Part shown: positions 2,829 through 63,380 of the stretch, in pieces | How positions within the stretch are numbered: the first letter of the stretch is position 1 | How the letters are laid out: each line of letters starts with the position of its first letter | Assembly (NCBI RefSeq): GCF_042453785.1 | Contig: NC_091666.1 | Span: 24,262,501 to 24,326,500 of the forward strand | Direction: 5' to 3' | Length of the DNA stretch: 64,000 bases | Origin: Malus domestica | Lineage: Eukaryota > Streptophyta > Magnoliopsida > Rosales > Rosaceae | Made by a program: the position numbers and the translations under genes | Notes under the pieces: model-generated | Database searches by the model: none | Told to the model about the DNA's origin: nothing | What the model saw: only the letters and a program-made list of their open reading frames with translations

Positions 2829-3118
2829 TATAGAAAACCTTAATGTATATTTCAGTGTCTTAAAACAGTTTACAAGATTAAGCATAAATAGAGGAATAAT
2901 CGGGAAAGAGAGGAGAGTAGGGGACAATGGCAGCTAAGCAAGTCAGCTAAGCAAGCATGAGAGTATGATGACCTCCACACTCTCTTAACACATGCTTTAC
3001 AGCTTATTAACAAGCTTTACACAGAAGAGGGAATAACACAGCTCACTAAACCCTAGCTAAACACAGCTAACACAGCTTTACAGCTGTTAGGGTTTAAAGA
3101 ATTCAATAATATTCAATA
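2829..3118 (-). repeat. 3' LTR of the copia element
   Basis: A 290-bp long terminal repeat, identical on reading to 7468-7757. It lies next to the polypurine tract, which makes it the 3' LTR for a minus-strand element. Confidence 0.95.
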
Positions 3119-7467: not shown

Positions 7468-7757
7468 TATAGAAAACCTTAATGTATATTTCAGTGTCTT
7501 AAAACAGTTTACAAGATTAAGCATAAATAGAGGAATAATCGGGAAAGAGAGGAGAGTAGGGGACAATGGCAGCTAAGCAAGTCAGCTAAGCAAGCATGAG
7601 AGTATGATGACCTCCACACTCTCTTAACACATGCTTTACAGCTTATTAACAAGCTTTACACAGAAGAGGGAATAACACAGCTCACTAAACCCTAGCTAAA
7701 CACAGCTAACACAGCTTTACAGCTGTTAGGGTTTAAAGAATTCAATAATATTCAATA
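7468..7757 (-). repeat. 5' LTR of the copia element
   Basis: A 290-bp long terminal repeat followed, on the minus strand, by the initiator-Met primer-binding site. It carries the element's promoter and is the expected start of its RNA. Confidence 0.95.
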
Positions 7758-27004: not shown

Positions 27005-27880
27005 ATCACTTAAAGTTAAAGTCACTGAATTTGATGAAATATTAGCCACTCTTCTTGCAGACCCTAGATTTAGACCTTGAATAGTTTTCTACATTTTTTT
27101 TCGGACCTTTTACCTTTCTAAATTTTGTCTTTTTACCCGACAATTCCTGACTTCGCCACTGTGTATCACTACATAAAAATATAAGCTAAAAGGAGCCAAA
27201 ATTTGAGATTGTTTTTTACATAAGGGGTTGAAAACTTGCGTTTGACATGTCTACATCATCTTTCGGTAAAGTATGATGCATAATTAACACACGTAATTAT
27301 ATTAAAATACATAATAATCAATCTGATCTTGTTGTGGGAGCAAATGTACGCATATATGCTTTTTTGATAGTTGAATTAGCCTTTCAAATCAGTGCATGCA
27401 GCTGTGGAAAGGAGGCTGAGATAAGTGCTCTTTCCATTCAAACTGAGATGAGCAACAAATTAACAATCAAAATGCATGCAGCCCCCAAGTTTTTAATCCT
27501 CTCTAAAATCCAACACCCCACAACTTTCCTTGGTCACATTAGTGACCTAATTTTTCCTTCCATTTCAAATTAAACAAAATCATATACAAACATTTTTAGT
27601 ACCATATTGGACTCTCCACTATGATTGAATGGAATTACAAGTTTGTGAAACAGCTGGAGTAGTTTAAGCAACTGTGGCAAATAGGGTAATGGAGGTTTGA
27701 GAGGAAAGAGTTGCGTTTTAGGTTATGGTGGAAGGGGAAAGAAACAAAGGCCAAGACTATATTGTTTTTTTCCTCAAAAGGACTTAAAACAATTTTTCTT
27801 TACTGCTACAGAGGACTATAGAGGGAAAGCAGGAAACACGGCTCCTTATGATTACTTTATCGTTGTTTAAAATTTCGTAT
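27005..27880. other. Intergenic region, no gene recognised
   Basis: A 79-codon open frame at 27334-27573 has no domain and no supporting context. Nothing else coding is seen. Confidence 0.5.
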
Positions 27881-28460
27881 TGTGGAGCCAAAAATAATCT
27901 AAAAAATTATTGAGGTGAAACGTGAACTTTTGTGTTAGAATGACAAAATTACCCTCGATGCACATCGGATTCCCACGCGCATGCAACGGATAATAACGGC
28001 TCAATCAAGAAAGAGTTAAAGGTGATCAATATGGTATTTATTCAAATCCATCACATCACCCCTTATCAATCCCTTATTGATTTTATTCAAAAGGTAAATG
28101 TTAAAACTTCCTATTTAATTTAGAAATAATTGTCATGTTAATTGCAATATATTTTTTTATATAATATCTTGTAATTATTCTCCAAATACCATCATATATG
28201 GCCGACCGTTCTCCATCCTAAGGGCTAGCCACTCCCCTATATATAGCTCTATCATCCCACTAAAAAGCGAGGCCATCTGCTACCCACAAACTTTTAAACA
28301 CATTCTTTTCAGAATTCTAACTTTGGCATTGGAGATTCTTCGGCCAAAGGCCCCCCCAATTCATCATGGACGCGTGAGGCTTTTGGCCTTAATCGAAGGT
28401 GTTATTATTTTGCAGGTGCATTTTCGTCAAAGGAATAGATGGTGGAAATTTGTATCCAAA
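27881..28460 (+). repeat. Left (5') LTR of the gypsy-derived element
   Basis: A 580-bp LTR beginning TGTGGAGCCAAAAATAAT. It holds a TATA motif (CCCTATATATAG near 28233) and ends ...TGTATCCAAA before the PBS-like site. Confidence 0.85.
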
Positions 28461-29799
28461 AATTGGTGCTTTCATTGAGAGTTTGATTCACACACTAGAA
28501 GAAGACTCTCACATTCAAAGTTTCTCATTTCTCGTTCGTTCGTAAATTTTTCATACATTCGTATTCCTAGAATTTTTTTAATTCTTTGAATAGACATAGG
28601 AGAAAAATACAATGGTGGGAAATTTGGAAACCACAACGAACAAAACTTTCTACATTCAAAGATCTGGATGAAATGATGGAGGACGCGTTGTAGCCCCACC
28701 ACAATGATCCACGAGACTCACTATGACAAGAGGAGTAACCTTGCCACCTCGGAACACCACCACCATGGCAGCCACGACAATTGATGTGGCAGTGAAGAGA
28801 AGGACAACTCCATGGCAGCTGGGCCACGAAACAACGACAACTACAACCCACGGAGCAGCAGCCCAGCAAGCAGCAAGCCCAAGACCCGTAGGCCCATGAG
28901 GCAGCACGAGCCCAAGTAGCGCCGAGAAGAGGAAAGACCCAGCGCCCGTGTGCCCTGACGGCCTGGCTCGTGCCTGCGATCCAGCCCATGCCTATGATCC
29001 GACCCGCACCCGCGGTCTAGCCCATTCTCTTGGCACACCTAGCTGTCCAAACCGATTTGAACATCCTGGTTCGACCATCCTAGCTTCAGATTTCTAGACC
29101 GAAAATTGAATCAAGGGTATTTTCACCCCATTTTTTTTTTGGAGATTTGACATATCTTAACTTAAATCTCGCACCTAGATTTTATTGTACTTCCACTACT
29201 CAAGGAGACGCATACCATCCAAGCTCTTCCATCCTAAATAACGAACAATATTTGTCTTGACAAGTCATAGAGCTAACAAGCATCCTCATGCAGCAAACGA
29301 ACCTTGGTGAATTAGCTTTTGCAGCGCACCGAGATGCAACGTGCCCCAGACGGGGTATCCCGAAGTAGGACAAGGGTAGATGACAAACCTTTCCAGTAGC
29401 GTCCCGGAAAACAGCCATTCGACCATCCACAAACCAAACAGTGTACACTCATGTCTGGACCCTGAGATAACGTATACTTTCATCTTAGCGCGCGAATGAG
29501 CGTGCACTCCCGGTTAAGCCCAATTGACAAGCATACATTCACAGTTAGGGCCACACTCCGATAATTAACATGGACAACCTTCAAGGTGAAGTGTTCAATC
29601 ATGGCTAGGTTCACAAAGAGCATCCTCCACCTTACATCAAAGTAGGCATCATACAGGACGGAGAGAAGTAGTCACTCAATTCGGCTCAAGTTCAATCGGC
29701 AACCTGCGAGTGATCCGCTCGCTTGCCAGGAACATTCCACATGCACGCAACTATGGCATAGGCGAGCCGAGCACAGGGAAAAGCAGCCTAACAGGTTAC

Positions 29800-31075: not shown

Positions 31076-32142
31076 ACACATCTCAAAGGGTCGAATACTC
31101 GAATACCAACTAAGCAGTAAATAGTTAGAAGGCAGCAGCTAACGACAAACTCAACAACTCGATGCCCCAAGAAGCCAAAACTCAAGGCCATAATGACTCC
31201 GTGGGATCGTTAGCCTTTTTCGAAGCAATGTGGTCAATCGATGGTTTTATGGCTAAAAGTTTTGTAGGACGCTTCAAGTAAGAAAAAATTCAAGAAAAAC
31301 AAAGACGGAGTAAAACGAAAGCAGTTTATTAAATTTCTAGTAAATTGATGAACTTAGACGAAGGTCGCCGAAATCCGACATAAGCTAAACAGAGCAGACT
31401 ACTCATTTAGCAGCTTGGATGACCTTGGGCTCTCAAGCAGCCATCCTGCCTTCAGCAGCCACTTCGCACTCAACAGTTTGCTCACCCGACACTTCATCTT
31501 CAGCAACTCCAATCTTGGCAGCACCATCTTCGATTACTTCATCCACGGTAACTGAGAAATCAAACTCAAGCAATTTCTTCATTCTTGACAAGCAACACAA
31601 ACTTGGCATCCCAAACCATGGCCTCTGCCACGCCACTTCCTCGGCCCATGTCGAGCCAGCCATTGGCTTTAGCTAAGTAGAGCGGCCCAAGTCGTGGCCC
31701 TTGCCACACCACTTCCTCGACCTATGTCGAGCCAACTCCTAGCCCTTGCCAGCCGACGTGTCGGACCACCCCGACAGCTACCCCGCAATAGCACCACCCA
31801 AGAAGAAGACAAAAAAAAAAACAATTCTTACCTTGGTGTGGTGCAGAGAAGACAAAGAAACCAACAGAAGATGGTTCTTTGCAAGGGCAATCAATGAAGA
31901 ATGCTAGGGGAAAGGGAACAAATATCATCTAGCTTTCTCTCTTTCTTATAGGGATAAATAATTGCCCTTCGAAGTTGATTTAATCCCCTACTTAAGGTAG
32001 GATTAAATAGGCTTTGGAGGTGATTTATTTCCCTTTCTTAGAAGAATCTAATTCCAAGTCCAAGTGGGAATCTACATCAAAGTTGGAGATCTCTACACCT
32101 GCTGCTCTTTCTTGCGAGCAACGTAGCAGGTGTGGAAGCATT

Positions 32143-32727
32143 TGTAGAGCCAAAAATAATCCAAAAAATTATGGAGGTAACATGTGGACTTTTGGGTAAG
32201 AAGGACAACATTACCCTCGAGGCACATTGAGATTCCCATGCGCATGCAACATACAATAACGACTCAATCATGGAAGAGTCAAAGGTGATCAATATGATAT
32301 TTATTCAAATCCCACTCGTCACTCCTTATCAATCCCTTATTGATTTTATTCAAAATGTAACTTCCAAAACTTCCTATTTAATTTAGGAATAATTGCCATG
32401 TTAATTGCAAGATATTTTTTCACATAATATCTTGTAATTATTCTCCAAATACCACCATATATGGTCGGCCGTTCTCCATCCTAAGGGCCGGCCATTCCCC
32501 TATAAACAGCCCTATTATCCCACCAAAAAGCAGGGTCATTTGCCTACCTACAAACTCTTAAACACATTCTTGTCAGAATTCTAACTTTGGGATTAGAGAT
32601 TCTTCGGCCAAAGGCCCCCCGGCCTATTCATCATGGGCTCGTGAGGCTTTTGGCCTTAATCGAATGTGTTATTATTTTGCAGGTGCATTTTCGTTAAAGG
32701 AAGAAATGGCTGAAATTTGCATCCACA
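32143..32727 (+). repeat. Right (3') LTR of the gypsy-derived element
   Basis: A 585-bp LTR beginning TGTAGAGCCAAAAATAAT. It is collinear with 27881-28460 but carries many substitutions. The TATA motif is CCCTATAAACAG. No strong polypurine tract is visible just upstream. Confidence 0.85.
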
Positions 32728-34500
32728 TGTATTGGTGGAAATATTGATGTGCAAATTGGTGGAAATATCGACGGTTATATCAAATATCGATATTGGTTGC
32801 TTTCGATGGTAATCATGGAATTTTAGAATGAAACTTTATGGATTGTCAAACATTGGTTTGTATGAAATATAAGAGTTTTTCCAATTAACAAATGTGTAAG
32901 AAATATCGACGATATATGCTAGTTTTAGCCTAAACTTAGTTTCTCCAATATGAGGTGTAGTTTGGACTTCAACCCCATTTTCATCTTTCTCTTATTTTTT
33001 GGATATTTCCAAGGAAGTATCGACTGTATCGAAGAAAGTTTAAACATTACTTACAATTATGTCAGTTAATGCGTTATTTTTTCTTAGCTGCAAATCACAA
33101 GCTGAAACATATTATAAATAACTTGTAGCTTGACAATAATTTATCTGCAAAGAAGAAAAACTCGTTAAACTATTAGAAGCCGGGTGTTTCCGGGAAAGAA
33201 ACTCTTAACACTCGAGATTCTTACCGTAGTACTAGAGCGAGAGAGAGAGAGAGAGAGACTACAAGATTGTTGAAATAGTTCTTCCATGATGGTATATGAT
33301 ATGGTAATATAAGAAATATGTCTTGAGTGCTGGTTCCTAATTATGTTATCCGTGGCATAATATATAAGTAGAATATGTTGATTTGATGACATGATAGTGC
33401 GCTGATGTTACCACTTTTGATGAATTTAGGACACAAATATGTCACCAGTCATCAAGGTTTGGTCTTAGGTCCATGACTCTCTCTCTGGCATTAAGGAAAA
33501 ATTGGAAGGTTTAATTATCAGTGTATCAAAGAATTTCCTTCAAATGAAGATCTGCACAAATTAGTTATATTTAGTAGAATCACTCGTATGCATTTTTGTG
33601 CTCCGGTTAGAAGATATAACTATGAGATGGAGGCGGCAAAAGGAGTAGAAGAAGATTTAGGAAGACTTGGAAAGAGACTTTAAGAAAATATATGGAGTAC
33701 TTAGAACTAATTGAAGACTTGTGCAAAACAGAGCGCATTGGCGTCTTAAGATTCATACAACTGATCTCACTTAGTAAGATAAAACTTGATTGTTGTAGTT
33801 GTTGTATTTGTATGCATATCATAGCGTTGGGATTTTCCTAAAAAAAAAAAAAAGGAAGAGAACTATCTGTATGCAGTTTGATTACTAATTATAATCGGTA
33901 AAAGATTTGTCCCACTTCCCATATGTTGATAGTCACCTGATTACATTTGGTAAATTTCCAAAAATATCCCATATCACATTTAGTAGGTTAAAGAGTCTAG
34001 GCAGTGCAAGTAACACAAATTAATTGTATTATAAAAAACTTTGAATTCCAGGATTGAACACTGTATATGTTTGAAGTGAAAACGACCAATTGATACAGGT
34101 GTAAGAAACAATGAGATTATAAGCTCGAAATCTATGCATGACTTATGCGTAGTTGCCATTTTATAGATACAAATCGATAACATATCAATATGTTTTATTG
34201 GTGATAATGATATCGGCACATTATTGAACACATAATGATAATCAAAAAACGAACGTTCATTCCATAGTCAAAAGCTTGAATAGAATTTTTACCTATTTTG
34301 AGTGAATAGAGAAAGGAATTAATGGAAGTTGTAGATCAACGAGTGTCCTTGAGTCTTCAACCTGACCTACCCAACATTCAACAAAAAAACAAGTGCGTTG
34401 GCCTTTAGCTGCTATTGGAAATTTCTTGTTTATTCTTTCTTCTTTACATCATTACTTGCTAGCTCAGTTGTTTATTTCCTTCCACTATGAGAAACCAAAT
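32728..34500. other. Repeat-derived intergenic region upstream of ALMT
   Basis: Near 32740-33030 several AAATATCGA motifs recur, typical of a decayed repeat. A (GA)n tract is at 33238-33260. A LINE tail is listed separately. No gene is recognised. Confidence 0.55.
33625..33853 (+). mobile_element. 5'-truncated RTE-type LINE tail
   Basis: The end of a non-LTR element: a decayed coding end (GRLGKRL..., then the sequence for ALAS/RIH-like residues), then GATTCATACAACTGATCTCA, a TTGTTGTAGTTGTTGT tract and a poly-A run at about 33840-33853. This ending is typical of abundant plant RTE LINEs. Only the last ~230 bp remain. Confidence 0.65.
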
Positions 34501-46597: not shown

Positions 46598-48967
46598 ATG
46601 GATTCCTGTAGTGGTTTTGTTGGTGGGAATTCTGGTTGCGACGATGGTGGCGTTGTGGAGAAAGATCCGACTGGGCAATACTTGCGGGTACGGTTCCGGA
46701 TTTTGTTTGCTCTTTAATTTGGTATTTAAATTGTCTTTTAATGTAAATTTTATTGGTGTTTGTTGAATGTGTTTTCGGTCATCATCGTTGCTTGCTTGTT
46801 GTTGGTTTTGGTGATATAATTCTTATGTAGATTTGTGTTTGTTCATCCAGTATGACGAATTGCTGGGGAGGGGAGCATTCAAGACTGCGTATGCTTCTCT
46901 AACCATACCTTGAATTCGTTTCTTTGTAGTTGGTTTCTAGGGTTCTAACGATTTGCTATTGCAAAATTATATGTTTACTTATTTGGATGTTGTACAAAAT
47001 GTAGATACAAGGCATTCGATGAGGAAGAAGGAATAGAAGTAGCCTGGTGCCAAGTGAATATCAAGGAGGTGTTGCAGTCTCCGGAACAGCTGGAGAGATT
47101 GTATTCCGAGGTTCATCTGCTGAAGTCGTTAAAACATCAAAACATTGTGAAGTTCCATAACTCTTGGGTGGATGATAAGAACAAGACCATCAACATAATA
47201 ACAGAGCTGTTCACTTCTGGGAGTTTGAGGCAGTCAGTTTTGCTGCTTTTTTTTCATGTTTCATGTTTTTACTTGGCGTACCTTCTTCAAATACTAACCG
47301 TTTTTGTTCTGGGATCTAGGTACCGAAAGAAGCATAAGAATGTCGATATGAAGGCCATTAAGAACTGGGCAAGGCAGATTCTTCGAGGCTTGCACTATCT
47401 GCATTCTCACAATCCTCCAATTATTCATAGAGATTTGAAATGTGACAACATTTTTGTCAATGGAAATACAGGAGAAGTTAAAATCGGTGATCTCGGATTG
47501 GCGATAGTCATGCAGCAGCCTACTGCTCATAGTGTTATTGGCACCCCTGAATTCATGGCTCCAGAGCTTTATGACGAGGAATACAATGAATTAGTCGACA
47601 TCTATTCTTTTGGCATGTGCATGTTAGAAATGGTTACTTGTGAATACCCTTATAGTGAATGTAAAAATCCGGCACAAATTTATAAGAAGGTTACCTCTGT
47701 AAGTTTCTGATCGACTGATTTATGAATTTCCCTCCAGTTTTTGTTTTTCTACTAAATGGTTGCCTACTGTTTCTCCTGACTTCCTTTGTTCCTTTGTTGT
47801 AGGGTGTAAAGCCCGCTTCACTCAGTAAAGTGGACAATCCTCAAGTCAAGCAGTTCATAGAGAAGTGTCTAGTTCCATCATCTATGAGATTGAGTGCGGT
47901 GGAACTCTTGAAAGATCCATTCCTTGCAACTGACAATTTGAAGGAGCCGAATTGTGTTGTTTTACAATCAGAAAAGATGGTGAACTTGCCACAGCCTGAA
48001 GCTCGTCCTATGGACATAGATACTAACTACCAGAAGTCCTCTGTTGGATCTTGTGCAAGAAGTACCAATGAAAATTCTAACCCTTCGGTTCTGGAGTTAC
48101 AGAGTTTAACTGAGAATAATGAGTTCAGGTTAAGAGCGACCAAAAATGCTGATAACACCGTCTCATTAACTTTGCGCATTGCTGATACATGTGGTAAGTA
48201 CATATGCCGTGCAAAAAGTTTTACTTCCCCCCCTTATTTTCCTGAACTACACCTGAATATTATTTGTTTATACAGGTCGTGTGAGGAATATCCATTTTGA
48301 GTTCTATCTGGATTCTGATACCGCAATTTCAGTTGCTGGGGAGATGGTTGAGCAACTTGATCTTTTGCATGAAGATGTGTCTGTCATAGCTGAGTTAATT
48401 GATAACTTGATCATGAAGCTAGTACCTGGCTGGAAACCTTCATCAGAAGGTTCATCATGTGGAACAAATAGTTCATGTGGGGATCACCCTGCTCCGCAAA
48501 ATGTTGTCTCACATTTTGTACATGCGGAGGACCGAGATAACCAAGCATCAATGATTTTAGATACTTCGGCTACCTCAGCTGAGTATGATGTCCCTACCTC
48601 CTCAGGTGCCAGTAATGTCAAAGTTATGAAGTCGGCTAAATACAGTTCTGATGAATGCTGTAAAGGTTCAGATGGTTATGGTTGCAGTCCAGATATTGTT
48701 CAGGGTGCGGTCAGGGAGAAGAGTAACGAAGCTGATTCTGATGATTCAGTTGTGATGAATGAGGCTCGCCCCGACATGTCAAGCATTTGGTCCTTATCTG
48801 AGCTGTCTCTAGCAAACAAAGGTCGATACAACGAGCTAAAGGGGGAGCTTGATGCTATTGACAGGCAGTACCATCGATGCCTTCTTGAGCTCTTGACATT
48901 GAGGGAAGAAGAAATTCAGAGTGCAAAGAAGAGGTGGATGGCGAAAAAGATATTATCTGTTAAGTGA
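46598..48967 (+). CDS. WNK8: WNK (with-no-lysine) protein kinase, WNK8-like
   Basis: Six exons: 46598-46687, 46851-46888, 47005-47232, 47320-47698, 47803-48193 and 48276-48967, giving 605 aa. The kinase domain (about residues 30-290) has the glycine loop GRGAFKT, where WNKs place the catalytic lysine; subdomain II reads VAWCQV, lacking the usual lysine. It also has HRDLKCDN, a DLGL magnesium loop and GTPEFMAPE. An OSR1-C/PF2-like domain follows ([32 protein letters not shown]), then a low-complexity tail ending in a short coiled coil ([22 protein letters not shown]). Plant WNK8-type kinases phosphorylate V-ATPase subunit C and AtRGS1 and act in sugar/G-protein signalling and flowering. Assignment to WNK8 is by overall similarity; the symbol is tentative. 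Confidence 0.93.
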
Positions 48968-49703
48968 TGTACTATTTAGTGTTCTTCTCTTTCGTCTCTT
49001 TTTTCCCTGTAACATTCATTTTATACTTGTAATTGTTTTTTTCGGTTAAGAAAAGCGGCGAAGCGAATCATGCCGGTGTTTATATGTGTGGATTTGGTAC
49101 GTACATTTGGTTTTACGATTGCTAATGATATTTACTTTGTTCCATTGCTTACCAAAAACATATAATGTAAAAAAGTGAGAGGGCCTGTGCTATTACTTCA
49201 TAAGTTCTACATTAATCTACTATGGGTAGAGATAATGTATACACATATATTTGGACACTTGGGCGAATCTAGAAAGCAGCGACCTCAGTGACTGACTTTC
49301 AGCTAGTTATTTCTTTCCTCCCCCCCACCCTCTGGTTCATTTCTGCTTCAGCTGAGCCCTCACAAACGAGGACGTGATCCGGGGAGGCTCGGGGTCTCTC
49401 TCGAACGGGAGGAACATCATCGCTTCGTGAACAGCTACCAACCTGCCGCCGGATTTGAGTGAAACTAGTCCGAATCTGGCTTAATGGTACAGAGGTACGT
49501 AAATTTAGAATTGAAGTGAATAGAAGTTTTGTTATTTAAACTTGTAGATCATGGCACTGGCTTTAGTTGGAGGGGCTGCTGTTGGAGCACTGTTTGGAGC
49601 TCTCTATGATGTGGTTAAGGTAAGCCACGGGAAAGACTGTTATGCAGTATAGACCCTTACTTGGAGATCTCAAATTCACGCTTGATTCTCTAAGACCGCT
49701 GAT

Positions 49704-51042: not shown

Positions 51043-51355
51043 TGGTAAAGTTGTTAAGATTTCGTAGCCGTTAGGGTTAGGTCTCCTAGTTTGTAGGCTT
51101 GTTTTCAGAAGTTGTTAATAATCCCTATTCTTTAGGGACAAGTTATTTAGTTTGATTCTGATTTAGTCGTGTACCACGTTGTTAGGCTTGTGAAACGTGG
51201 GCTGCATATTTTCAGCATTCAGTTTTCTTTGTAAGGCTATTTAATGCCATTGTTGCTTTCTTAATGAATAACCCAGATTCTCCCAGCTATCGAGTGTATA
51301 AGCAAACATAATATTTTCGTGTTTTTTCTTGTGTGTTCATCCTAGGTTTCTAACA
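51043..51355 (+). mobile_element. Solo LTR (313 bp) in the broken RPW8-WRKY gene
   Basis: Begins TGGTAAAGTTGTTAAG and ends GGTTTCTAACA (TG...CA). It is flanked by the 5-bp duplication GGAGA (51038-51042, 51356-51360). The right copy has a single GGAGA at this place, which confirms the insertion. The interior shows late-LTR features (ATGAATAACCCAGATT before the end). Produced by LTR-LTR recombination. Confidence 0.8.
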
Positions 51356-52233
51356 GGAGAGAGGTGATGTGATCAAGGAGACATCGTTTGCAGCAAGTAA
51401 CATAGAGGAAGGCGTCAAGCTAATGGAAGGGAGTGGTGTGTTACAAGACCAAAACGGAATCAAAGGTTTGTACTAAGTTGTTGAACCACCATCACCGAAA
51501 GTTATATTGGATGTACTGAATCTGCAGGGAACAATGGATGTGGAGGAGACATCAGATTCCACGGTGAATATGGAGGCAGGGGTCAAGCAAATCAAGGAGA
51601 GTGGTGTGGTGAAAAATCAAATTGATATTGCAGTAACTGAACCCCCGTTGCTTAGAGATGGATTGGAAGTAGCGAACATGCAGGGAACAAGGGATAATAA
51701 GCAAATTGAGGGGATAGGAGTGGTCGCGCTCCAAGCTCCAGTTTCTGAATGTGAACTTCCATCGCTTACACTCGAATTGAACGTCCAATTTGGGCTCTTA
51801 GATTCAATGAGTAGCTTCGAAGACAACCAGCAAGTACTAGACTGGCAGCAGCAGCAGCAAAACTCTTATATGGTACGACTAAATTCTTACATTCTCTTCT
51901 TTTTAACTGTGTAGTCGGAAGCCTAGTTTTGAACCTTATTCTGAGACCATATCATATTTCATGAACAGGAAGAGGCGCTGAACAGCCAGCAGCAGTCATT
52001 GAATTTCAGTAAGTACTTCAATTTGCCAACAGAGAAGGCAGGACTTGAGTCTGAAGTTGAATTTGAGCCACTACCGGGTTTATCCCAAGCCATTGACACG
52101 AGCCTTGCATATGTGCAGAGTAGGCAACATGTTGATGCTCCAGAGCCTCATTACATAAATAGAACTCGATTGTCTCACCATGTTAGTCAGATAAAGTCAA
52201 ATGCTGGGTTTACCTGGGGAAAGTATGGGTAAG

Positions 52234-53161: not shown

Positions 53162-53962
53162 GTAAGAACAAGTGGAACGTAGTAAATATCCGTGTAGTTA
53201 TTACAAGTGTACATATCCCAAATGTCCAACAAGGAAGAAGCTTGAGAGATCATTGAATGGAGAGATTACTGAAATCGTATACAAGGGAAGTCACAACCAT
53301 CCTAAGCCCCAGTCTACAAGACAATCAACCTCTCGACCAATTGAGCGTTCTTCATACGGACTCTTTGATCAATTGGCCCCAAAAATATCCAACCCAAAAG
53401 TTGAATCAGCCACGACGCTGGATGATTTGGAAAAAAAATCTCTGACCAGTAATTCAGGAGTTGAAGATGAAAATGAGCCTGTCATCAAAGAATGGTAATC
53501 TCGGACGATTCTAGTTAGGACTGTATATGTCATATGATAGCCAAAATTGCATATGCGGTAAGGGTTTTTTTTTTGTTTTTTTTGTTTTTTTTGTTTTTTT
53601 TTGTTCTTCTTTTGCAGGGATGTAGGAAACGCAAATGATCAGACAACTCATACCTTTTCTGCTTCTGGGAGTAGCATTGTAAAAGAACCCAGAACTATGG
53701 TGAAGACAATAAGTGAAATTGATCTTGTGGATGATGGATATAAGTGGAGGAAATATGCACAGAGAGTAATAGATGGAAATTTTCTTCCAAGCAAACACTT
53801 CCCCAACTCGGCTGCTTATATCCTATTCAACTGTTTTCCAATCTGTAGGGCCTACTACAAATGCACGTAAAGGGAAACACAAGCACGACATTCTTGGAAA
53901 ATATTAGTATTTTAAGTATTATATTGTTTGAGTTTTTTTATAAGTTTAGTTTCGGCCTAACA

Positions 53963-58516: not shown

Positions 58517-59428
58517 ACCAATGAAAATTGTAACCCTTCGGTTCTGGATTTACAGATCTAGAGTTTAACTGAGAATAATGAGTTCAGGTTAAGAGCGACC
58601 AAAATTGCTGATAACACCGTCTCATTAACTTTGCGCATTGCTGATACATGTGGTAAGTACATTTGCCGTGCAAAAAGTTTTACTTCCCCCCCTTATTTTC
58701 CTGAACTACACCTGAATATTATTTGTTTATACAGGTCGTGTGAGGAATATCCATTTTGAGTTCTATCTGGATTCTGATACCGCAATTTCAATTGCTGGGG
58801 AAATGGTTGAGCAACTTGATCTTTCGCATGAAGATGTGTCTGTCATAGCTGAGTTAATTGATAACTTGATCATGAAGCTAGTACCTGGCTGGAAACCTTC
58901 ATCAGAAGGTTCATCATGTGGAACAAATAGTTCATGTGGGGATCATCCTGCACCGCAAAATGTTGTCTCACATTTTGCAAATGCGGAGGACCGAGATGAT
59001 CAAGCATCAATGATTTTAGATACTTCGGCTACCTCGGCTGAGTATGGTGTCCCTACTGCCTCAGGTGCCAGTAATGTCGAAGTATGGAGTCGGCTAAATA
59101 CAGTTCTGATGAATGCTGTAAAGCTTCAGATGGTTACGGTACCAGTCCAGATTGTATGGTTCACGGTGCGGTCAGGGAGAAGAGTTACGAAGCTGATTCT
59201 GGTGATTCAGTTGTGATGAATGAGGTACGCCCTGACATGTCAAGCATTTGTTCCTTATCTGAGCTGTCTCTAGCAAATAAAGATCGATACAATGAGCTAA
59301 AGGGGGAGCTTGATGCTATTGATAGGCAATACCATCGATGTCTTCTCGAGCTCTTGAGGTTGAGGGAAGAAGAAAATCAGAGTGCAAAGAAGAGGTGGAT
59401 AGCGAAAAAGAAATTAGGTGTTAATTGA
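58517..59428 (+). pseudogene. Duplicated 3' fragment of WNK
   Basis: Corresponds to the end of WNK exon 5, intron 5 and exon 6; kinase exons 1-4 are absent. An extra ATCTAG in the exon 5 part brings a TAG stop, and a one-base loss near 59083 (GTCGAAGTATGGAG versus GTCAAAGTTATGAAG) shifts the frame in exon 6. The tail after the shift is otherwise close to WNK ([22 protein letters not shown]). It cannot encode a kinase. Confidence 0.92.
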
Positions 59429-60016
59429 TGTACTATTTAGTGTTCTCTGTCGTCTTTTTAATTCCTATAACATTCGTTTTATACTTGTAATTGTTTTTTC
59501 ATCAAGAAATGCGGCGAAGCGAATCATGCCCGTGTTTTTATGCGTCGATTTGGTACATACATTTGGTTTTACGGTTACTAATAATGATATTTTCTTTGTT
59601 CCATTGCTTGCCCAAAAAAAAAAAAAATAATGCAAAAAAGTGACGGCCTGTGCTAATACTTCATAATTTCGACAATAATCCACAAATGATAGAGATAATG
59701 TATACATATATATTTGGACACTTGGACGAATCTAGAAGCAGAGATCCCAGTTGACTGACTTTCAGCTAGTTTTTACTTTCCTCCTCACACCCTCTGGTTC
59801 ATTTATGCTTCACCTGAGCCGTCACAAACGAGGACGTGATCCAGGGAGGCTTGGGGTCTCTCTCGAACGGGAGGAACATTCATCATCGCTTCATCAACAG
59901 CTACCAACCCCCCACCGGATTTGAGTGAAACTATTCCGAATCTGGCTTAATGGTACAGAGGTACGTAAATTTAGAATTGAAGTGAATAGAAGTTTTGTTA
60001 TTTAAACTTGTAGATC

Positions 60017-60097
60017 ATGGCACTGGCTTTAGTTGGAGGGGCTGCTGTTGGAGCACTATTTGGAGCTCCCTATGATGTGGTTAAGGTGGCCGCAGTA
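60017..60097 (+). pseudogene. Out-of-frame RPW8 N-terminus upstream of the fusion gene
   Basis: ATG 60017 opens [20 protein letters not shown], the hydrophobic start typical of RPW8, and runs into TAG at 60097-60099. The next module ([11 protein letters not shown]) is in the +1 frame. The left copy shows the same break, so the frameshift predates the duplication or marks an unrecognised splice. Confidence 0.7.
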
Positions 60098-62958
60098 TAG
60101 ACCCTTACTTGGAGATCTCAAATTCACTCTAGATTCTCTAAGACCGCGGATCATCCAACAGATCGGAGATCATAATGTGGAATTGGGCCTTCCAAACGAC
60201 GAAATAGAGAGCCTTCAGAGACAAATGGAGGAGGGTACAGAACTGGTTAGGAAGCTATCGAACGTTGGTATGTGGAACTGCAATATCTGGTGCAGTTGCT
60301 GCAACTGCACAAAGCCAAGTTACACGGATCAACTTGTTGAATTGGATAGGTCATTAAGAATACTGTTAGAGATACTGAGGCTGCAGGAAGCAAGGGATGT
60401 GAAGGAGGCCTTGCTTCTGGCAAGGAAAATCCACAACAAACAAGATGAGTTGGATAAAAAGATGTCGGATTTGCTCAAAGTGCAGCAGGAGGCAGGGTTG
60501 ACAGCGCAACATGAAACGACTGTGGGAGAGCTTTCAGCAAGTAACACACAGACGATGGTGCACGACCGAGTTGAAGGGAATAGTGTGCAAGGGGCTGCTC
60601 TAGGAGCAGCGTTTGCTGTGCTCTTTGGTGCTGTTATACAAGTGAAGGACAACACTAGGATGTTTAAGCGTGTCCTTGGATATCTAAAATCCACGCTAGA
60701 CTCCTTAAAACCGTTGATAGAAGAGGTAGCCAAATGTAAAAGGGTACTGCATCTCCCAAAGGAGGAACTAGAGAATTTTGGAATAGAAATGGAGAAGGGT
60801 ATAGAGCTAGTTGTCAAGTGCTCTAAGGTTCGTCTGTGGGCTAGCTACAGAAAGGATGAATATTCAAACAAACTTCTTGGGTTGGACGAATCTCTTCAAA
60901 GATTGTTATATATACTGAGAATGCAGTTAGCAAGGGATGTGAGAGAAAGCTTGGTTTCCGTAAGTAATATGGAGAAGGTGATAAAGCAAATTGCAGGGCA
61001 TGATGTGGCACAAAACAATGAGGTTGCAGGTAATGGTATGTGTCCCCAGCCTGAACCTCCATCCTCTACAGTTGGATTGGATGTATTGAATGTGCAGGAG
61101 AGAGGTGATGTGATCAAGGAGACATCGTTTGCAGCAAGTAAAGTAGAGGAAGGCGTCAAGCTAATTGAAGGGAGTGGTGTGTTACAAGACCAAAGCGGAA
61201 TCAAAGGTTTGTACGAAGTTGAACCACCATCACCGAAAGTCGAATCGGATGTACTAATTCTGCAGGGAACAACGGATGTGGAGGAGACATCAGATTCCAC
61301 GATGAATATGGAGGCAGGGGTCGAGAAAATCAAGGACAATGGTTTGGTGAAAAATCAAATTGATATTGCAGTAACTGAACCCCCGTTGCTTAGAGATGGA
61401 TTGGAAGTAGCGAACATGCAGGGAACAAGGGATGATAAGCAAACTGAGGGGATAGGAGCGGTCGCGCTCCAAGCTCCAGTTTCTGAAGGTGAACTTCCAT
61501 CGCTTACACTTGAATCAAACGTCCAATTTGAGCTCTTAGATTCAATGAGTAGCTTCAAAGGCAACCAGCAAGTAATGGACTGGCAGCAGCAGCAGCAGCA
61601 CTCTTATATGGTATGACTAAATTCTCACATTCTCTTCTTTTTAACTGTGTAGTCGGAAGCCTAGTTTTGAACCTTATTCTGAGACCATATCATATTTCAT
61701 GAACAGGAAGAGGCACTGAAAAGCCGGCAGCAGTCATTGAATTTCAATAAGTACTTTAATTTGCCAACAGAGAAGGCAGGACTTGAGTCGGAAATTCTCT
61801 TTGAACCAGACGCACAACCGGGTTTCTGCCCTGAGAGCATTGGATATTTGCAGAGTAGGCAGTATGACGATGCTCCAGAGCCTGATTACATAAATAGAAG
61901 TCAATCGTCTCAGCATGTTAGCCAACTAAAGTCAGATGATGGGTTTAACTGGAGAAAGTATGGGCAAAAACAAGTGAAAGGTGGTAAGTATCCCCGTAGT
62001 TATTACAAGTGTACATATCACAATTGCCCAACAAAGAAGAAGGTTGAGAGATCATTGAATGGAGAGATTACTGAAATCATATACAAAGGAAGTCACAACC
62101 ATCCTAAGCCCCAGTCTCCAAGACAATCAACCTCTCGACCAATTCCAGGTTCTTCATACGGACTCTCTTATCAATTGGCCCCAAAAATATCCAACCCAAT
62201 AGTTGAATCAGCCAAGACACCGGATGATTTGGAACAAAATTCTCCAATCAGTAATTCAGTAGTTGAAGATGAAAATGAGCCTGTCGCCAAAGAAAGGTAA
62301 TCTCGGACGATTCCGGTTAGGACTGTATATGTCATATGATTGCCAAAATTGCATATGCGGTAATGGGTTTTTTTTCTTCTTCTTTTGCAGGGATATAGGA
62401 AACGCAAATGATCAGACAACTCATACCTCTTCTGCTTCTGGGAGTAGCGTTGTAAAAGAACCGAGAACCGTGGTGCAGACAAAAAGTGAAATTGGTCTTG
62501 TGGATGATGGATATAAGTGGAGGAAATATGGACAGAAAGTAATGAAGGGAAATTTTCTTCCAAGGTACACATTCTAGGTCTTTAACACTTTTAGTTGCTT
62601 ATATGGTATTGCAACCTTGTAAATCTGTTTAGCTTTCCTTGGTAGATTCCTTTCATTACAAGCAAACACTTCCCCAACTCGGCTGCTTATCCTTTTCAAC
62701 TGTTTTCCAATCTGTAGGGCCTACTACAAATGCACGTATACAGGTTGTCCGGTGAGGAAACATGTGGAGCGATCACCGCATGACTCAACGTCTGTGATCA
62801 CCACATATGAAGGGAAACACAACCACGATGTTCCTGCAGCACGCTATAGTGACATTTATAGTGCTCCAAAAGAAGGTGCTTCCGAACACCAATCTCAATC
62901 TGCAGGGCCGGTCCAGAGATTTTTGAGGCCTGGGGCGATGCCAAAAAATGTGCCCTAA
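60072..62958 (+). CDS. RPW8-RPW8-WRKY-WRKY fusion protein (no NB-ARC/LRR)
   Basis: Four exons: 60072-61610, 61707-62296, 62391-62564 and 62718-62958, all GT-AG and in phase, giving 847 aa from ATG 60072. Domains: a first RPW8 module without its N-terminal anchor (residues about 8-140; [33 protein letters not shown]); a second complete RPW8 module (about 168-300; [43 protein letters not shown]); a repeated acidic linker (about 325-510) ending in poly-Gln; an N-type WRKY (about 594-650, WRKYGQK, C-x4-C, HNH); and a C-type WRKY (about 752-803, [17 protein letters not shown]) split by the conserved intron after the PR position. RPW8 modules act at membranes in powdery-mildew immunity; WRKY domains bind W-boxes. 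The start is uncertain: an upstream ATG (60017) encodes the expected RPW8 N-terminus in another frame. The last ~17 residues lie in a transposon-like repeat. Confidence 0.87.
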
Positions 62959-63380
62959 CTTCATATAAGAAAATTATTTATTTCACGCATAAGACATCGA
63001 TAAATTTATACTTAGAAAAACAGTTCAAACTCAATAATTTAGAAACACTGAAAGACTAATTAATTTTGAATCGAGAGAATGAAACCAAAAAATTCCGAGC
63101 ATACAAGTAGATAGACGATACCGTGGCAGTCATCGTTTGCCTCGCAGTTATACCTTGTGTTACACTCAATAGGGTTGGTCCAGAGAATTTTGAGGCCGGC
63201 GTGACGCCAAAAAATGTGCCCTAACTTCATATAAGAAAATTATTTATTTTCACATGTAAGACATCGATAAAATTATACTTAGAAAAGAAATTCAAACTCA
63301 ATAATAAACACAGAAAGACTAATTTATTTTGTATCCAGAGAAGGAAACAAAAAAACTCCGAGCTTACATGTAGACAGACG
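62907..63380. repeat. Direct repeat (~200 bp, period 266) at the fusion gene's 3' end
   Basis: A block starting GGTCCAGAGA(T/A)TTTTGAGGC and containing CCAAAAAATGTGCCCTAACT occurs at about 62911-63105 and again at about 63176-63380. The first copy supplies the last codons and stop of the fusion gene. The GGGCCGGTCC-like start suggests a DNA-transposon end, superfamily not proven. Confidence 0.8.

Follow-up and report, generated by a model that had tools for sequence, protein, structure and literature searches.

A 64,000-nucleotide stretch of the apple (Malus domestica) genome, positions 24,262,501 to 24,326,500 of contig NC_091666.1, holds on its forward strand (60072-62958) a gene that joins RPW8 modules directly to a pair of WRKY DNA-binding domains. 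We call the whole stretch the window and number positions from its first letter; C6 denotes its contig, other C numbers denote other contigs of the same 651-Mb assembly (19 contigs), across which the genome scans were run, and the parts of the fusion gene, of its tandem copy and of the two sister genes described below all lie on the forward strand. The RPW8-to-WRKY fusion is real at the DNA level. We suggest, with a probability of roughly 0.45, that it joins a membrane-prone RPW8 part to a WRKY33-like bait, the WRKY cassette having been captured by a tandem-RPW8 gene before a local tandem duplication.

The fusion frame is spliced from four exons into 847 codons, with the frame kept and with GT..AG splice sites. 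Exon 1 (60072..61610), delimited by its open frame and splice donor, encodes two RPW8 modules and an acidic repeat linker; exon 2 (61707..62296) begins at the junction that opens exon 3 in the donor genes described below and carries the N-terminal WRKY domain (N-WRKY, 61935-62105); exon 3 (62391..62564) supplies the first half of the C-terminal WRKY domain (C-WRKY) and ends at an intron after PR that is common to the donor genes; and exon 4 (62718..62958) supplies the second half and a truncated tail. An initial annotation of the window had proposed these coordinates, the four exons, one partial and one complete RPW8 module and two complete WRKY domains, all of which Pfam matching and splicing bear out. 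It had also described the exons as in-phase, which holds in so far as the frame is kept; the introns, with phases of 0, 2 and 2 calculated from exon lengths of 1539, 590, 174 and 241, hence do not share one phase.

Searched with Pfam hidden Markov models (HMMs), the 847-residue protein exceeds the cut-offs for both families in two stretches each, with 167.1 bits for WRKY (cut-off 21, E 9.8e-50) and 138.3 bits for RPW8 (cut-off 30.4, E 1.8e-40). Scored alone, the partial module 1 (60096..60431) reaches 49.4 bits over positions 30-133 of the 139-position profile, and the complete module 2 (60585..60986) reaches 100.2 bits over positions 4-138; the corresponding six-frame HMM matches are C6:24322596-24322931 and C6:24323085-24323486. 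The interval 60090-60960, singled out beforehand as the place where an RPW8 match should be sought, is where both begin. Module 2 keeps the hydrophobic first helix within it (hydropathy peak 1.87 at amino acids 171-189). The linker (60987..61610) is 17% acidic and built of repeated units, as judged from offset self-match and composition, and its first part is common to sister genes that carry an SBP domain. Both WRKY domains retain the WRKYGQK heptad and the C2H2 zinc ligands when aligned with the WRKY genes on C4, C12, C11 and C3, and the Pfam matches agree, as had been predicted of the heptads and zinc-finger ligand sets. The one further Pfam match in the fusion, SusD_RagB at 14.1 bits, lies below its own cut-off. 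The joining of RPW8 to WRKY without an NB-ARC, likewise proposed at the outset, stands: a Pfam scan of the protein gave no NB-ARC match, and tblastn with the NB-ARC of one sister gene (E<=0.01) found no remnant behind the fusion or elsewhere in the 64-kb window. No leucine-rich repeat (LRR) was listed in the Pfam scan of the fusion protein, the one search in which LRRs were sought.

The joint between the two parts is intron 1 (61611..61706, phase 0), which is homologous to an intron in a counterpart of this locus on chromosome C14 and bears a weak likeness to the intron that precedes exon 3 in the WRKY gene on C4. Exon 2 has no methionine codon, and neither of the two ATGs in intron 1 is in frame; the fusion is methionine-free between residues 514 and 760, and the next methionine, residue 761, already lies within the second WRKY domain. 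The WRKY part therefore needs exon 1 to provide its start codon, an argument against a model of two separate genes. The initial annotation had named WRKY-only transcripts starting near 61700 as the finding that would speak against a fusion, and at the DNA level intron 1 and exon 2 offer a WRKY-only product no in-frame ATG.

The cassette donor is, by its sequence relationships, a WRKY33-type group I gene, a placement that rests on nearest relatives in the genome and on solved structures. The closest matches beyond this locus are the C4 and C12 genes, each 66% identical over about 150 residues around N-WRKY (among the best 111 of 261 candidates), and AtWRKY33 is the best match for both WRKY halves among solved structures. 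With donor gene structure inferred from open frames, exon 2 of the fusion and donor exon 3 open at one and the same phase-0 junction and both lead with EE. Fusion and donors also share the position of an intron within the second WRKY domain, and the WRKY part corresponds to exons 3-5 of WRKY33-type genes. Donor exons 1-2, the SP-rich N-terminal half, have no counterpart in the fusion that we could recognise by eye. The donors' C-terminal tail is also absent: from 62903 a dispersed repeat (62903..63060) takes over and is the source of the last ~18 residues and the stop codon. A second copy of this repeat begins at 63171, forming a local pair, and the genome holds at least 43 matches to it, itself included (best 40 of 465 candidates scored).

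The WRKY cassette was long under purifying selection in the past. Across 220 codons compared with the C4 gene there are 64 synonymous and 71 nonsynonymous differences, which give a synonymous divergence (dS) of 0.69 and a ratio of nonsynonymous to synonymous divergence (dN/dS) of 0.22; the ratio is 0.21 against C12, and dS is ~0.7 against the C4/C12 pair and saturated against C11/C3. By region, fusion and C4 differ with dN/dS of 0.07 in N-WRKY, 0.34 between the domains and 0.25 in C-WRKY, as against 0.11, 0.12 and 0.037 for C4 versus C12, where the N-WRKY value comes from 3 changes and the C-WRKY value from 14. When amino-acid changes are polarised with C11/C3, N-WRKY has 7 on the fusion lineage, 2 on the C4/C12 stem and none ambiguous; the region between the domains has 10, 5 and 13, and C-WRKY 8, 0 and 3. 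The C-terminal WRKY domain of group I factors is usually the main, strongest DNA-binding domain. Its sequence in the fusion suggests that it has been loosened relative to the donors, a contrast that is merely suggestive because the changes between C4 and C12 are few. In the RPW8 part, dN/dS is 0.26 against sister copy 3, 0.30 against sister copy 4 and 0.38 against the C14 counterpart, beside 0.32 between copies 3 and 4 themselves.

A broken tandem copy upstream (copy 1) helps to date these events. The segment 48064-53869 duplicates the fusion gene along with the 3' end of a kinase gene that looks WNK-like by eye, at ~87-94% identity by piece. Its 5' part (48064..49703) spans the kinase 3' end and the start of copy 1 and is 90.6% identical to 58517-60151; a middle piece (51354..52232, 90.2% identical to 61095-61967) holds the linker with an in-frame stop, intron 1 and the 5' part of N-WRKY; and a last piece (53164..53869), separated from the middle one by ~930 bp of other DNA, holds the remaining N-WRKY and part of C-WRKY, including at 53849 an acceptor matching that of exon 4. 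Copy 1 is a pseudogene: the RPW8 modules are mostly missing after 49703 and the linker, within exon 1, contains the stop. The two copies differ with dS 0.085-0.091, about one third of the values for presumed genome-duplication pairs (0.31 for C4/C12, 0.27 for C11/C3, 0.24 for sister copy 4 and the C14 counterpart). The 1272 nt of matched exon contain three internal indels (3, 6 and 9 nt), all in frame, and 572 nt of 5' non-coding sequence contain seven (3, 2, 2, 1, 3, 6 and 4 nt), of which three have lengths divisible by three. These counts exclude the RPW8 head, which neither copy has in frame, and gaps at stretch ends, which were dropped as alignment edges. When changes since the duplication are polarised by the donors, 25 nonsynonymous and 2 synonymous ones fall on copy 1; the fusion copy has 11 and 5, and another 4 and 2 are ambiguous. 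We had read an absence of constraint from dN/dS values of 1.06 and 1.23 between copy 1 and the fusion (copy 2), and dropped that reading once polarising placed most of the nonsynonymous changes on copy 1.

The capture itself probably preceded the genome duplication that separates C6 from C14, to judge from the C14 counterpart. Its flank is 86-88% identical to the kinase region, and it consists of a pair of RPW8 modules that contain a stop, followed by what is left of a linker, an intron, and a short exon that soon ends in a stop. The intron is homologous to intron 1 of the fusion (0 of 1000 shuffles as good) and the short exon resembles the start of exon 2 (3 of 2000 shuffles); for three control introns, 127, 215 and 245 of 500 shuffles were as good. 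Compared with the donor introns, the C14 intron was equalled by 13 of 1000 shuffles for C4 and by 429 of 1000 for C12. A search of 20 kb at this locus, of which ~10 kb lies downstream, detected no WRKY domain. We considered a simple deletion on C14 and rejected it: the C14 RPW8 part is nearest to copy 4 (dS 0.24) and far from the fusion (dS 0.77), so recombination within the array is likely. By eye, the C14 RPW8 gene also contains ~1 kb of other DNA with repeated ends.

Just beyond the window lie the two sisters, copy 3 (C6:24339491-24342407, 927 amino acids) and copy 4 (C6:24354550-24357688, 1001 amino acids), whose predicted splicing gives the order RPW8-RPW8-linker-SBP-linker-NB-ARC in both. 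In their RPW8 and linker parts both are relatives of the fusion, with tblastn reaching amino acid 421 in copy 3 and 458 in copy 4; the SBP domains score 88.0 and 88.4 bits in Pfam, and the NB-ARC domains are truncated to about half (45.4 and 46.5 bits, profile 7-136 and 7-138 of 248). Pfam listed no LRR in either gene. The sister SBP is interrupted by an intron after its CxxCSR motif, and copy 4 resembles, by eye, a mosaic of two RPW8 lineages. Scoring all 79 RPW8 candidates of the genome gave 55 matches, scoring all 94 SBP candidates gave 67, and the best 150 of 276 WRKY candidates gave at least 154 WRKY matches. WRKY and SBP were the domain kinds sought beside RPW8, and 6 of the 55 RPW8 matches lie less than 20 kb from a listed WRKY or SBP match, all of them in this C6 cluster; on other chromosomes the nearest such pair is 590 kb apart among the WRKY matches listed, and more neighbours are possible among the lower-ranking WRKY candidates. 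It is a tentative and rather doubtful generalisation that the C6 cluster is a domain-integration locus, in which tandem-RPW8 genes were repeatedly coupled to DNA-binding domains of transcription factors, WRKY33-type and separately SBP, as a bait-carrying class whose WRKY form would have no need of an NB-ARC switch. Another tandem-RPW8 locus lies at C15:24264566-24266316, and FastTree groups its modules with C6 modules 1 and 2 (supports 0.996 and 0.933), so the RPW8 doubling looks older than the C6 cluster.

How the fusion might work can be pieced together as follows. A tandem-RPW8 gene of the type whose sisters still carry a partial NB-ARC would have gained the DNA-binding half of a WRKY33-type gene (exons 3 to 5) through a frame-compatible phase-0 intron junction, earlier than the tandem duplication and probably earlier than the C6/C14 genome duplication. 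Effectors aimed at WRKY33-type factors, whether to bind or to modify them, would contact the fusion instead, and this contact would trigger or titrate an RPW8-type response, analogous to what the WRKY domain of RRS1 does for an immune receptor; module 2, with its hydrophobic first helix intact, would supply the response. The SBP of the sisters, in a comparable place, would fit the same bait logic. We infer the bait function and the RPW8 output, and we favour a bait over an activator because the WRKY33 N-terminal half and tail are gone and C-WRKY is loosened. The initial annotation had offered two roles, a decoy or a short circuit from sensing to transcription; the decoy fits better, and the short circuit fits less well given these losses, the C-WRKY changes and a first RPW8 helix that is out of frame.

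That displaced helix is the strongest ground for doubting full activity of the fusion copy. Translation of 60017..60100 yields the start codon and first helix of the original RPW8 head (27 amino acids, MALALVGGAAV...), out of frame with the remainder, as an upstream open reading frame (ORF) that overlaps the 60072 start. The hydrophobic helix that follows the start codon is thus present (60017-60097) but lost from the fusion frame, and module 1 is partial, lacking the first 29 RPW8 profile positions, because the family start codon at 60017 sits in another frame. The spacer from this head to the CAG of the QYRP/QYKP motif measures 7 nt in the fusion, 25 nt in copy 1 and 24 nt in both sisters (copies 3 and 4); the aligned C14 stretch is also 24 nt, though the C14 head is unrecognisable. 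The shift in the two tandem copies reflects either one shared event or two separate ones. An A at -3 and a G at +4 flank the 60017 ATG. The fusion would have to be translated from the 60072 start, and the protein may be poorly translated or may start at 60072 only; the fusion copy may be newly damaged, with a module 1 that lacks its first helix. We considered an intron at AAG|GT of the start region that would rejoin the frame and rejected it, since the next AG is 10 nt away in the fusion and 28 nt away in copy 1, too short for an intron, and copies 3 and 4 read straight through this region as coding sequence. In the same region, 123 nt around the original start (59935-60057 and 49469-49591) are identical in both tandem copies, in contrast to 89% identity over their 5' region as a whole, and a possible 53-nt intron of the 5' untranslated region (59961-60013, by eye) lies within this identical stretch.

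Several observations weigh against an active bait. Neither tandem copy has the family start codon in frame, and this codon stands in good context ahead of the 60072 start. The fusion copy has gathered 11 nonsynonymous and 5 synonymous changes since the tandem duplication, a ratio of ~0.6 that points to weak constraint at best. The history of capture has soft points as well: the resemblance of intron 1 to the C4 WRKY intron is weak (8 of 1000 shuffles as good or better) and that to the C12 intron is not significant (107 of 1000), nor is the likeness of the C14 short exon to the C4 donor exon (134 of 2000). Nor has a partner receptor for the fusion been identified.

The start-frame shift makes a dying relic the main rival, which we regard as unlikely and yet as the most serious contender. 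On this account the fusion functioned for long, and the copy in this haplotype, now a pseudogene or nearly one, has lost the start frame of its RPW8 part, the C-terminal tail of its WRKY part and its tandem sister; a start codon out of frame at 60017, a C-terminus derived from a repeat, a broken copy 1 and the post-duplication ratio are all what a decaying gene would be expected to show. The difficulty is that 847 codons remain open, with both WRKY domains and RPW8 module 2 intact. In neutral simulations (2000 runs, no indels), the ORF stayed open in only 11 runs at 0.045 substitutions per site, and in 55 and 201 runs at the lower divergences of 0.03 and 0.02.

It is somewhat less probable that the fusion is a dominant-negative or titrating WRKY, which would occupy W-boxes without the WRKY33 N-terminal half and so dampen WRKY33 targets, using RPW8 for localisation or oligomerisation. 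The heptad and zinc ligands kept in both domains would permit this, as would the absence of donor exons 1-2 with their SP clusters, presumably mitogen-activated protein kinase sites. A titrating role sits poorly with the eight amino-acid changes in C-WRKY on the fusion lineage, against none on the C4/C12 stem and three ambiguous, and with a hydrophobic RPW8 helix that could hold the protein at membranes. Improbable, in our view, is the short circuit, in which RPW8 perceives or localises and a release sends the WRKY part to the nucleus to activate defence genes: one frame does hold signalling and DNA-binding modules, but the WRKY33 N-terminal half and C-terminal tail are missing, no release site is known, and a circuit specific to WRKY does not explain the SBP in a comparable place of the sisters. 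Least credible is a gene-model artefact, an RPW8 gene ending just after 61610 beside a separate WRKY gene, which the stop at 61614-61616 met by a transcript with intron 1 unspliced might suggest, and which we reject on the lack of any methionine beyond residue 513 before residue 761 and of an in-frame ATG in intron 1 or exon 2, and on an intron 1 that is 97.9% identical between the tandem copies and kept on C14.

Elsewhere in the window, two 290-bp stretches (2829-3118 and 7468-7757) are 100% identical at a distance of 4.6 kb and may be the two ends of a very young long terminal repeat (LTR) retrotransposon, and a 596-bp direct pair (27880-28468 and 32142-32737; 87% identity, 4.3 kb apart) is possibly an older LTR pair.

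Several known systems resemble the fusion in part. With the helper receptors of the RPW8-type class (RNLs; ADR1, NRG1) it shares the RPW8/CC-R module, and its module 2 weakly matches the structures 7L7W and 7L7V of At5g66900 (E 0.036 and 0.061), which we take to be NRG1. Unlike the RPW8-NB-ARC-LRR order of these helpers, the fusion has neither NB-ARC nor LRR, and it has two RPW8 modules, the first with its helix out of frame; its sisters, unlike the fusion, keep a truncated NB-ARC. It resembles WRKY33-type group I factors in its two WRKY domains, its intron positions and its nearest paralogues on C4 and C12, and differs from them in an N-terminal half made of RPW8-RPW8-linker and a C-terminal tail of repeat sequence.

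Among R protein-WRKYs and other nucleotide-binding LRR receptors (NLRs) with integrated domains (RRS1, WRKY19; PMC4350883, PMC4759884), WRKY domains have likewise been captured repeatedly by immune genes and explained by a bait model, with the WRKY domain of RRS1 described as trapping effectors directed at WRKY factors (PMC4759884). The fusion differs from these in lacking NB-ARC and LRR, in placing WRKY directly after RPW8 and in keeping both group I domains; RPW8 goes unmentioned in the available portion of PMC4350883. Closer in form are proteins in which RPW8 is fused to another domain without NB-ARC (RPW8-Pkinase_Tyr, RPW8-IQ, RPW8x3-Peptidase_C48), reported alongside an expansion of RPW8 genes in Rosaceae (PMC5039405); a WRKY partner is absent from the main text of that paper. 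The grass clade MIC1 (PMC5819176) is similar in that homologous immune genes are fused to diverse exogenous domains, including WRKY; there the genes are NLRs, and here they are tandem-RPW8 genes in one eudicot cluster with two domain kinds only. As for the second kind, the SBP factor SPL6 stimulates resistance to tobacco mosaic virus in the setting of the N receptor (PMC10487714). A literature search by term, titles and abstract openings found no RPW8-WRKY protein; the gene may well be present, without comment, in apple WRKY tables. The survey of integrated domains in PMC4759884 begins from NB-ARC proteins and would therefore miss an RPW8 protein without NB-ARC.

Captured domains in immune genes indicate which host proteins pathogens attack. 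The presence of two kinds of transcription-factor domain in one small RPW8 cluster suggests that a second type of capture locus exists beyond the grass NLR clade, and makes WRKY33-type and SBP factors candidate pathogen targets in apple relatives.

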